A stretch of DNA of 64,000 nt, from NCBI RefSeq assembly GCF_001548035.1, contig NZ_AP014723.1, positions 310,001 through 374,000 on the forward strand, read 5' to 3'. The stretch comes from Sulfurospirillum sp. UCH001 (lineage in GTDB: Bacteria; Campylobacterota; Campylobacteria; Campylobacterales; Sulfurospirillaceae). Shown one piece after another: positions 52,304 to 56,263 of the stretch. The stretch's first letter is position 1. Every line of letters begins with the position of its first letter. The notes below the pieces were generated by a model that was not told where the DNA came from, made no database searches, and saw only the letters and a list, made by a program, of their open reading frames with translations. The position numbers and the translations under genes were made by a program.

Positions 52304-52810
52304 TTATTTCATATTACATGAACTTTGATACTGAGGAGAAGAACTATTTTTTTCAACATGTAATTTCATCATGAGTAGAAGTATTTCATACATATCTTTA
52401 TCGTTGCTTTTAGCAATCGTTTTGAGGGTATTCTCAATATTTTCAACATTGACATGATTTTCTAAAAGTTTAGTTTGAAGAAATGAAACATCCCAATTAA
52501 ACAATGCACATAGCGCAGTAAAAGACTGATTTTTTGTGTTGTGAATTAGAAAATCGATGTTGTCTTCATGGCGGATATGTTTGTTAAAAAGAATTGCGAT
52601 GCATTCTTGCGCAAGCCGTCTAATAGTACAACGCCTAAGCCATGCATGGACACTTAAAAGTAAAAGAATCATTAAAGCAGCAATTTTATGCAATAAAACA
52701 TTATAGGTGGAAACACTTCCTAATACAAAAGCAATACCCGTCGTATAAAGGATAATGAACATCACAAGGATAGATATAATAATTACAACTTTGAGCACAG
52801 TTTCATTCAC
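52304..52810 (-). CDS. small membrane protein related to the DUF4405-type protein
   Basis: A 168-residue protein with two transmembrane helices (about 6-28 and 40-58), His in LLHKIAALMILLLLSVHAW and a soluble C-terminus (FNWDVSFLQTKLLENHVNVENIENTLKTIAKSNDKDMYEILLLMMK) that resembles the helical repeat of the protein at 46554-47381. Function unknown; possibly haem binding. It ends near the RAYT element. Gap 52160-52303 holds only upstream sequence of the MFS gene, with nothing else recognisable. Confidence 0.65.
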   Translation of the reverse strand: MNETVLKVVIIISILVMFIILYTTGIAFVLGSVSTYNVLLHKIAALMILLLLSVHAWLRRCTIRRLAQECIAILFNKHIRHEDNIDFLIHNTKNQSFTALCALFNWDVSFLQTKLLENHVNVENIENTLKTIAKSNDKDMYEILLLMMKLHVEKNSSSPQYQSSCNMK

Positions 52811-52825
52811 ATTAATTCCTTTAAA

Positions 52826-53671
52826 GGGGTCAGGGCTAAACTTTTAACTTTTTGTATTCTTATGTTAGAATTCTAGCAAAAAAAGAGGGTATTTATGCCA
52901 CGAAGATTACGTATTGAAAGCTTAGGATACCATCATATATACAATAGAGGTGTAGCAAAAGGAAATGTTTTTGAAGATGAAAAAGATAAAGCAAAATTTA
53001 TTGAACTGATAGCAAGTATTGCTAGAGAGTATAAGTTTAATATACATGCATTTTGTTTGATGGACAACCATTATCATATTTTAGTACAAAATACGCGTGA
53101 AAATCTCTCTTCAGGCATGCGCCAATTAAATGCGCAGTACGCAACATATTTCAATAAGCGGCATCAAAGAGTAGGACATTTGTGGCAAGATAGATTCAAG
53201 TCATGGTATGTTTTAGATCAAAAATATCTCTTTACACTTTTTAAGTATATTGAAAATAATCCAATCAAAGCAGGAATGAGCCAAAGAATAGGTGATTACA
53301 TGTTTTGTTCTACTTATAGTATTTTAAAAGATGCTATACCTGCCTTTTTACAAAACAGTTTTGTTTTACGAGATTATCATACCCATGAGTTATTTGATCT
53401 GTTAAGCATTCCTCTTAGTCTAGAAGAACGCACACGCATCAACACATTTCATCAAACGAAGTACAATCATCACAATAGTGAAATTCAGCCTTTGCATAAA
53501 GAAAAACTTGAAAGTTATTTTATGAATGTACAAAATAAACAGCAAAGAAATGAAGCAATAAAAAATGCTTATAACGATGGATATAGTAAAAGTGAGATCG
53601 CAAGAAATATTTCTCTAAGCGTTGCGGGAGTGAGTAAAATACTAAAAAGTTAAAAGTTTAGCCCTGACCCC
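52826..53671 (+). mobile_element. 846-bp RAYT/Y1 element bounded by perfect 28-bp inverted repeats
   Basis: Positions 52826-52853 and 53644-53671 are perfect inverted copies (GGGGTCAGGGCTAAACTTTT at the outer part). Between them lies only the Y1 transposase gene, whose stop codon falls inside the right copy. The element sits between the small membrane protein gene and gyrA. Confidence 0.85.
52895..53653 (+). CDS. REP-associated tyrosine transposase (Y1_Tnp, RAYT-like)
   Basis: HUH single-strand nuclease: YHHIYNRGVAKGNVFEDE, the HUH motif DNHYHILVQ and the catalytic Tyr in LFTLFKYIENNPIKAGM. A C-terminal HTH-like tail (NDGYSKSEIARNISLSVAGVSKILKS) may bind DNA. 252 residues and intact. RAYTs act on palindromic repeats of the REP type; the flanking 28-bp repeats are its probable substrates. 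Confidence 0.92.
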   Translation: MPRRLRIESLGYHHIYNRGVAKGNVFEDEKDKAKFIELIASIAREYKFNIHAFCLMDNHYHILVQNTRENLSSGMRQLNAQYATYFNKRHQRVGHLWQDRFKSWYVLDQKYLFTLFKYIENNPIKAGMSQRIGDYMFCSTYSILKDAIPAFLQNSFVLRDYHTHELFDLLSIPLSLEERTRINTFHQTKYNHHNSEIQPLHKEKLESYFMNVQNKQQRNEAIKNAYNDGYSKSEIARNISLSVAGVSKILKS

Positions 53672-53673
53672 TA

Positions 53674-53702
53674 TTGAAACAAAAGGAAAAGAAAAGTAAA
53701 AT
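53674..53702 (+). promoter_or_regulatory. gyrA promoter next to the RAYT element
   Basis: TTGAAA (53674-53679) and TAAAAT (53697-53702) are 17 bp apart, 30 bp before the gyrA ATG; the -35 box begins three bases after the right inverted repeat. Confidence 0.55.
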
Positions 53703-53731: not shown

Positions 53732-56263
53732 ATGGATAATATTTTTGATTCTAACCAAGACATCAAAACGATTAGTATTGAAGAGTCGATTAAGACCAGT
53801 TATCTTGATTATTCGATGAGCGTTATCATCGGACGTGCGCTTCCTGATGCAAGAGATGGTTTGAAACCAGTTCATAGAAGAATTTTATATGCGATGAATG
53901 ATCTTGCGATCTCTTCACGTAGCCCATACAAGAAATCGGCACGTATCGTTGGTGATGTTATCGGTAAGTACCACCCACATGGTGATACAGCTGTTTATGA
54001 TGCACTTGTTCGTATGGCTCAACCTTTTTCTATGCGTATTCCTATGGTTGATGGTCAAGGAAACTTCGGTTCTATCGATGGTGATAATGCGGCTGCTATG
54101 CGTTATACAGAAGCTCGTATGACACCACTTGCCGAAGAGTTGCTCAGAGATTTAGATAAAGACACCGTTGATTTTGTTCCAAACTATGATGATAGTATGG
54201 TAGAGCCAGACGTTCTTCCAAGCCGTGTTCCTAACTTATTGCTTAATGGCTCAAGTGGTATTGCGGTAGGTATGGCAACAAACATTCCACCACACTGTTT
54301 AGATGAACTTTTAGATGGACTTTTGCTTCTTATTGACAATCCAGAAGCAACACTTGAAGAGATTATGGAATTCATCAAAGGCCCAGATTTCCCAACAAGC
54401 GGTATTATCTTTGGTAAAAAAGGAATCATCGAAGCATACCGTACAGGACGTGGTCGTGTTAGAATTCGTGCGAAAACGCATATCGAGAAAAAAGGAAATA
54501 AAGACATCATTGTTGTGGATGAACTTCCATATCAATGTAACAAAGTACGTTTGATTGAACAAATCGTTGGTCTTGTAAAAGAGAAAATGATTGAAGGTAT
54601 CAGTGAAATTCGTGATGAGAGTGACCGTGAAGGTATTCGTCTTGTTATTGAACTCAAACGTGAAGCGATGAGTGACATTGTTCTTAATAACCTTTATAAA
54701 TCAACCAGCTTAGAAGTAACATTTGGTGTTATTTTACTTGCAATTCACAATAAAGAACCAAAAATCTTTACATTGATCGAATTGTTACAACTCTTTTTAC
54801 GTCATCGTAAAACCGTTATTATTCGTCGTACTATTTTTGACCTTGAAAAAGCAAAAGCAAAAGCGCACATCTTAGAAGGTCTTAAAATTGCGCTTGATAA
54901 CATCGATGAAATCATCGCGTTAATCAAAAGCAGTGCCGATACAAAAAGCGCAAAAGACGGCTTGATTGAGCGTTTCAATCTCAGTGAAGTTCAAGCAGGT
55001 GCAATCCTTGATATGAGACTCCAACGTCTTACAGGACTTGAGAGAGACAAAATTGAAAATGAATTGGCTGAGTTGTTACTTGAAATTCAACGCCTCAGCG
55101 ACATCTTACGCAGTGAAGCACTTCTTAACAACTTGATTAAAGAAGAGTTATTAGAGATTAAAGACAAATTCAAATCAAAACGTATCACAGAAATCGTTGA
55201 TGATTACGATGATATTGATGTGGAAGACTTGATCGCAAATGAGCCAATGGTTGTCACCATTACTCACCGTGGTTACATTAAACGTGTTCCACTTAAGCAG
55301 TATGAGAAACAAAAACGTGGTGGTAAAGGCAAAATCGCTGTAACAACGTACGATGATGACTTTATTGAGAGTTTCTTCGTTTCTGATACCCATGATACCT
55401 TGATGTTTGTAACCGATCGCGGACAACTCTACTGGTTAAAAGTGTATAAAATTCCTGAAGGAAGCCGTACAGCAAAAGGTAAAGCGGTTGTCAATCTCGT
55501 ACAGCTACAAGCAGATGAGAAGATTATGGCAATCATTCCAACGACTGACTTTGATGAAACAAAATCAATTGCATTCTTTACCAAAAATGGTGTCATTAAG
55601 CGTACTAATTTGAGCGAATTTAAAAATATTCGTTCTGTAGGTGTTCGTGCGATTACTTTAGATGATGATGATGGTTTAGTGACTGCGAAAATTGTAACAC
55701 AAGATGCGCAGTTCTTATTTATCGTAACCAAAAAAGGTATGTGTATTCGTTTTGAAGTAGGTGATGCACGTGAAATCGGAAGAACTGCACGTGGTGTTAC
55801 TGGAATTCGCTTTAAAGAAGAGAACGATTGCGTTGTGGGTGCTGCGGTTATTTACAATGAGCAAGAAGAGCTTTTAACCGTTACTGAAAAAGGTATTGGT
55901 AAACGAACAACGGCAGAAGAGTATCGTTTACAAAATCGTGGTGGTAAAGGTGTTATCGCTATGAAGTTGACAGCAAAAACGGCCGATCTAGTAGGTGTTG
56001 TTATTGTTGATGAAGATAAAGACCTTATGGCGCTCAGCAGCAGTGGTAAAATGATCCGTGTGGATATGGAAACTATCCGAAAAGCAGGACGTAATACCAG
56101 CGGTGTTAAAGTCGTTTCTGTTGAGGGTAGTGACGTAGTTGCAAGTATTGCGCGTTGTCCAAAAGAAGAGAGCGATGAGCTTGAGGGTGAATTTGAAGAA
56201 GGTGATGAGAGTTCTTCTAATGAGGGAAGCTTGATTGTAGATGATACACCAAGCGCTGAGTAA
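53732..56263 (+). CDS. gyrA: DNA gyrase subunit A
   Basis: Type II topoisomerase breakage-reunion subunit, 843 residues. The catalytic Tyr is in [11 protein letters not shown], the resistance-determining region is [20 protein letters not shown] with Thr and Asp at the positions of E. coli Ser83 and Asp87, i.e. the wild-type residues for this group. The C-terminal wrapping domain has the GyrA box QKRGGKG and six blade repeats, and the end is acidic. It has its own promoter at the edge of the RAYT element. Confidence 0.98.

Follow-up and report, generated by a model that had tools for sequence, protein, structure and literature searches.

RAYT (TnpA-REP) proteins are known as single-copy, housekeeping-like transposases with dispersed cognate repeats (PMC8266576). 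TIRYT genes are flanked by long TIRs carrying the motif GGGGWSAS (Di Nocera et al. 2013, PMC3733652), and their TIR families are moderately abundant, with single, dimeric, or grouped copies (PMC3733652, PMC6006769). These TIRYTs, or TIRtrons, correspond to subclass 2.1 of Quentin et al. 2018 (PMC6006769). It is an open question in this field how repeats of the REP type spread, and another why immobile transposases are retained by bacteria. The locus described here offers a variant that has no hairpin and few copies, along with an empty site, a location upstream of gyrA that is shared family-wide, and a natural genome that has the enzyme and lacks dispersed repeats, so that enzyme, site, and consequence become separable in Sulfurospirillum relatives. 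A literature search, with subscription papers largely outside its reach, returned nothing pointing to this gyrA-side transposase locus.

The locus belongs to Sulfurospirillum sp. UCH001 (GCF_001548035.1), whose 2.6-Mb genome is contained in one contig, and lies in the window, the stretch of 64,000 nt that was analysed (NZ_AP014723.1, positions 310,001-374,000 of the forward strand). A repeat search of the window revealed two arms forming a perfect inverted repeat, each 29 nt long, 100% complementary, and 790 nt apart, with an intact transposase ORF between them. This arrangement had been recognized in the initial annotation with repeats of 28 bp, and several of its details are borne out, namely a unit length of 846 bp (52826-53671), a stop codon within one repeat (a TAA in the right arm), and, at the level of predicted hexamers, contact with the gyrA promoter, the -35-like box of which begins 2 bp after the 29-bp arm. 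The parts of the locus, in window coordinates, are the following:

52825..52853, + strand: left arm (TIR), AGGGGTCAGGGCTAAACTTTTAACTTTTT, from the repeat search; fits the TIRYT motif GGGGWSAS
52844..52871, + strand: predicted transposase promoter, with a -35-like TTAACT within the left arm and a TG-extended -10 TAGAAT; consensus match only
52895..53653, + strand: TIRYT/RAYT-like Y1 HUH transposase of 252 aa; ORF with profile and structure matches
53069..53077, + strand: HUH motif H59-Y60-H61, invariant in 29/29 orthologs
53138..53149, + strand: Y82 and Y85, invariant in 29/29 orthologs
53537..53647, + strand: candidate C-terminal three-helix HTH-like domain (residues 215-251), from profile searches and the structure model
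53644..53672, + strand: right arm (TIR), exact inverted copy of the left, holding the transposase stop; from the repeat search
53674..53702, + strand: predicted gyrA promoter TTGAAA-17-TAAAAT, 2 bp past the right arm; consensus match only
53732..56263, + strand: gyrA, from profile matches; a neighbour retained across much of the family

On the other side of the transposase, a divergent gene of 168 aa with no assigned family (52304-52810, - strand) adjoins it in most, not all, members of the genus.

The protein matches the Y1_Tnp profile PF01797 at 6.2e-16 (59.1 bits, cut-off 23), and together with the HYH motif of the 29 orthologs this gives it the Y1 HUH character of the TIRYT/TIRtron proteins. 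One of the two invariant tyrosines, Y82 or Y85, is presumably the catalytic residue. At the C-terminus, HTH_38 stays below its cut-off (20.1 versus 27 bits), phrog_686 (HTH) matches at 5.3e-4, and three helices are present in the structure model. The best fold matches of this model, which is of moderate confidence (pLDDT 67), are IS608 TnpA (Z 14.0, rmsd 2.5 over 101 residues) and TnpA-REP 4er8 (Z 13.3, rmsd 3.0 over 143 residues), the latter being the best Foldseek match. A sequence search of solved structures with the transposase gave no match at E<=0.001.

Like the RAYT/TnpA-REP systems with their REPs and REPINs, this transposase is single-copy, has dispersed cognate repeats (here in relatives), and resembles 4er8 in its fold, while palindromic arm doublets recall REPINs in some relatives. 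However, one arm here has neither GTAG nor a hairpin, and the copy number is low. No GTAG-tagged palindromic REPs stand beside the gene, GTAG occurring in neither arm; the cognate repeats that RAYT groups 2 and 3 have dispersed in the same genome are represented by the two arms only; and the model for REP-associated tyrosine transposases, NF047646, scores 73.6 bits, below its cut-off of 80, which leaves the protein outside the RAYT equivalog. With the IS200/IS605 elements (IS608, ISDra2) the protein shares the Y1 HUH fold, but the locus is not a multi-copy mobile element (profile search found one Y1_Tnp gene in the genome, and the ortholog clade stays at one place), its arm has no hairpin, and NF033573 gives a score of 21.7 (cut-off 55). 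The 29-bp arms, which start with AGGGGTCAG, are long TIRs with GGGGWSAS, and in RNA folding a single arm forms no structure (MFE 0 kcal/mol), as expected of TIRYT repeats, which are unlike REP hairpins. According to these data, the element is a TIRYT/TIRtron and not a canonical GTAG REP/RAYT. The name RAYT given in the initial annotation holds in so far as the gene is intact and RAYT-like, and is replaced by TIRYT in its strict REP sense. In the scheme of Quentin et al., its likely place is subclass 2.1. The likeness to the TIRYT/TIRtrons comprises the Y1 HUH protein with its putative C-terminal HTH-like domain, the GGGGWSAS TIRs at the flanks of the gene, and a TIR family of moderate abundance whose copies are single, dimeric, or grouped. 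What sets this locus apart is its fixed position upstream of gyrA in a large part of a family, the co-change of its arms by lineage, and the occurrence of solo TIRs at genome breakpoints; the accessible parts of the published TIRYT descriptions contain none of these three features.

The locus is probably a domesticated TIRYT, single-copy in this genome, that has been inherited vertically with gyrA since before the split of the five genera, with the arms as its sites and an action in trans in relatives; the safest statement is that of a domesticated TIRYT with the arms as its sites. The arms would be the recognition sites of the protein itself. The predicted -35 and the left arm overlap, and the protein would probably act as an autorepressor when bound there; the right arm lies at the edge of the predicted gyrA promoter. 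In relatives, dispersed 28-bp arms would be targets of the protein in trans: it would nick them close to the GGGG edge, where other DNA would then be joined. Autorepression, nicking at the GGGG edge, and the movement of cassettes are read from sequence patterns; nicking and joining in trans would explain solo arms, palindromic doublets, and cassette borders. Since its own genome has no dispersed arms, the trans-acting role of the protein rests on the relatives.

A genome-wide count of the repeat had been proposed in the initial annotation, and it found the 29-mer, with up to three mismatches, nowhere in the 2.6-Mb genome besides the two arms; the reversed-pattern control gave 0, so that the finding is not due to chance. 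A third exact GGGGTCAGGGCT in this genome (L005) was rejected as a chance match, being seemingly coding by eye and lacking the remainder of the arm. Relatives were surveyed in a family set of 44 genomes, 24 of the genus (UCH001 included) and 20 of four other genera. Arm matches with up to three mismatches are present in 35/44 of them, at 2 to 19 places each, arms included, and the reversed-pattern control was again 0. Among the matches listed, most dispersed copies are solo 28-mers in unique DNA, GGGTTAAAC is shared by the arms and nearly all dispersed copies in the g2 genomes, and GGTCT is found in arms and dispersed copies alike in G034. In g2 genomes, part of the copies form palindromic doublets, and for one of these the folding energy is -30 kcal/mol. 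Dispersed copies are intergenic in nearly all of 40 loci inspected. A regulon of the transcription-factor type was considered and rejected: the intergenic sites follow gene ends as well as precede starts, and thus do not form a simple operator set.

The dispersed copies are clustered: the 57 copies in 8 genomes include 13 pairs of neighbours at most 5 kb apart, against an expectation of 0.70 (0/5000 simulations), pairs that are not all independent because some clusters are common to related genomes. When two close relatives were compared over 330 kb, copies with up to four mismatches were at or inside differing segments in 6/6 and 4/4 cases, against a background of 18.5% and 9.4% of intergenic positions. 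These copies come from two or three regions, and the count excludes two seemingly orthologous 5-mismatch matches per 330-kb stretch. Such an association could also arise if dispersed arms merely served at breakpoints as short homologies for general recombination, or were passengers of islands, an explanation that is possible, albeit not favoured. Recombination between 28-mers could place breakpoints at arms too, arms lie in generally variable DNA, and breaks occur at both arm edges: across 82 copies in the fetched loci, arm-including homology stops at the GGGG edge at 22 sites and at the TTTT edge at 6, and many other homology comparisons end away from the arm edges. Nevertheless, after merging into orthologous groups the GGGG edge leads with 10 groups against 3 (p=0.09), the edge-versus-edge comparison being the only fair one because the loci were picked for holding an arm. 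A segment of ~280 bp with a tRNA-Thr (CGT) and an arm also argues against general recombination. It is present in G006, G007, G009, and G012 and absent at its site in G000, G001, G008, and G017; at L104 it ends with the GGGG edge flush with a junction that is empty in these four relatives. In G007 the target directly adjoins the GGGG edge, and in G009 this edge carries ~110 bp more. In L297 (1956-2031, and its arm), a tRNA-Thr (CGT) is inserted together with an arm, and the two genes on either side are immediate neighbours in other species. At the L108 site, the flanking genes are present in eight relatives and the DNA between them differs, so that there is no clean empty site, and at L098 homology is one-sided only in the nearest relative.

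Pfam matches among the ORFs beside arms (n=106, non-redundant) include HepT-like (4), GGDEF (3), ParE (3), YafQ (2), NTP_transf_2 (2), and DUF4160 (2), and none of these families is among those with at least two matches in 106 control ORFs of a relative, a control count that takes in only part of the families matched once. The arms thus border small cassettes with toxin-antitoxin genes, GGDEF, and, in one case, tRNA-Thr. In a PADLOC scan of the ORFs adjoining arms, the hits were for the most part to candidate models and comprised one or two members, and no conclusion is based on them.

The transposase is located directly upstream of gyrA in 31/44 family genomes, across five genera and with protein identity down to 56%. 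In the genus, the ortholog is found in 22/24 genomes (68-100% identity); 21 of these orthologs are followed by gyrA in the same orientation, and the contig of the remaining one ends just past the gene. In the four other genera, 10/20 genomes show the same position (56-65% identity). Family members from beside gyrA constitute one clade of 39 tips (support 0.999) when 134 transposases are placed in a tree, with no member of this clade elsewhere except one moved 10 kb; the six tips without a gyrA-downstream label are two contig ends, one cut gyrA start, one wider gap, and G025 twice. In G025, the transposase lies ~10 kb upstream of gyrA, and a right-arm remnant still adjoins gyrA. Upstream of gyrA in this genome (L046/L071), ~9.8 kb with genes that look mer-like by eye lie between two right-arm copies of the same direction.

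This family-wide linkage could mean that the protein is a local regulator of gyrA, which on the right arm, 2 bp from the predicted -35, would tune gyrase supply and hence be held in place. As such a role would allow, the gene has been kept intact in UCH001, whose genome has no dispersed arms, and in L200 (2400-3360) a TIRYT of another clade also lies exactly between comF and gyrA. The explanation is nonetheless unlikely, given that the -35 hexamer itself varies among orthologs by eye (TTGAAA in many, TGGAAA, TAGAAG, or none in others) and that the transposase has been lost from gyrA in 8/44 genomes (G018, G026, G027, G031, G032, G033, G037, and G043), a call that covers the genomes in which gyrA was found and so leaves aside G019, G028, and G040. 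Together with an apparent frameshift near codon 225 in G011 (L026), where both arms are perfect, these absences indicate that the gene is dispensable. As for the promoters, they are pattern matches and not mapped starts, with 10 promoter-like sites versus 5.5 expected in shuffles; by eye, a -10 region similar to that of the transposase is present in most relatives. Because the predicted -10 lies between the left arm and the ATG, the transposase mRNA should lack the left arm. It had been suggested in the initial annotation that a hairpin-forming repeat or read-through could change gyrA expression. The arms as an RNA hairpin were rejected, since a single arm stays unfolded and the transcript from the predicted promoter would not include the left arm, which leaves this part of the suggestion weak. 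In a locus scan, no terminator-like site was found between the transposase and gyrA, so read-through into gyrA is possible, and an effect on gyrA expression is, judging from the sequence, possible as well. According to two papers, REP repeats are bound or cut by the gyrase of E. coli, a link that makes the gyrA neighbourhood tempting and proves nothing.

More broadly, gyrA is present in 10/99 loci of relatives, eight of them family members and the others L200 and L246. In L246, the transposase is upstream of a divergent gyrA, and in L208, the sister of L200, it is beside comF; the comF-gyrA gap may be a preferred site. Outside the family, 63/90 loci with enough flank, a set that takes in some family members and some places entered as two loci, score at least 16 for arms of the same kind, and 52/63 carry GGGTC.

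Integron gene cassettes are small, some of them hold toxin-antitoxin genes, and they have a repeat at their border. The arm-bordered segments resemble them in these respects, by analogy only, and differ in that their borders are TIRs of a Y1 protein. It is quite unlikely that the whole amounts to a family-wide, gyrase-linked TIRYT in which one immobile HUH nuclease, produced next to gyrA and kept in place by its own arms, mobilises one-ended cassettes in an integron-like manner by nicking dispersed 28-mers at the GGGG edge, its own level being coupled to gyrA; toxin-antitoxin, diguanylate cyclase, and tRNA cassettes would form part of this same joint reading.

Returning to the domesticated TIRYT, the transposase is under purifying selection as judged from substitution rates, with a median dN/dS of 0.084 (Nei-Gojobori; the 40/210 genus pairs with dS<1.5), the value for the first 900 nt of gyrA being 0.029; some or all rate comparisons were made without L010, L026, and L030. 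The arms have mean identities of 0.926 and 0.955 across 190 genus pairs, and the compared stretches 0.546 (third codon positions of the transposase), 0.656 (40 nt upstream), and 0.727 and 0.778 (two spacers). The two arms of a locus are identical over 27 nt in 21/32 loci and match in at least 26/27 positions in 29/32, the clearly uneven pairs being those of G013, G003, and G038; L038, where no right arm was found, was left out of this test. Mean arm identity within a locus is 0.976 versus 0.912 after re-pairing, and 0/20000 shuffles, which ignore relatedness, reach the observed value; the outcome is unchanged with the 17 distinct arm pairs only. The variants GGAGCT, AGAGCT, GGTCT, GCCCCC, AAAGCT, and GGGTT are present in both arms of separate lineages. 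That both arms change together in several lineages is also what gene conversion or inversion would produce, keeping the arms alike without any binding function. This is very unlikely, as arm conservation exceeds that of the flanks, the dispersed copies among the matches listed carry the lineage variants too, and the transposase and gyrA are always on one strand where they adjoin, so that no inversion is seen in the family; an invertible element was discarded on this last ground.

The proposal of the initial annotation that the unit is recently active, to which perfect arms and an intact ORF would be suited, is hardly conceivable as a recently inserted, active mobile element and was ruled out by the position survey, given the same place in 31/44 family genomes and the undiverged arms that also flank the old copies of relatives. 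The identity of the arms is thus due to constraint and co-change, not to youth. A conserved arrangement with diverged repeats in all relatives had been named as the mark of an old resident gene; in the gyrA upstream regions of relatives the arrangement is conserved and the repeats are undiverged, so that this expectation splits.

Two further observations concern individual copies of the gyrA neighbourhood. In G017 (L011), gyrA is seemingly short of ~26 N-terminal codons, which may be an assembly error. In L020, an apparent second comF 3' end lies between the right arm and gyrA, as if it had been duplicated by the original insertion.
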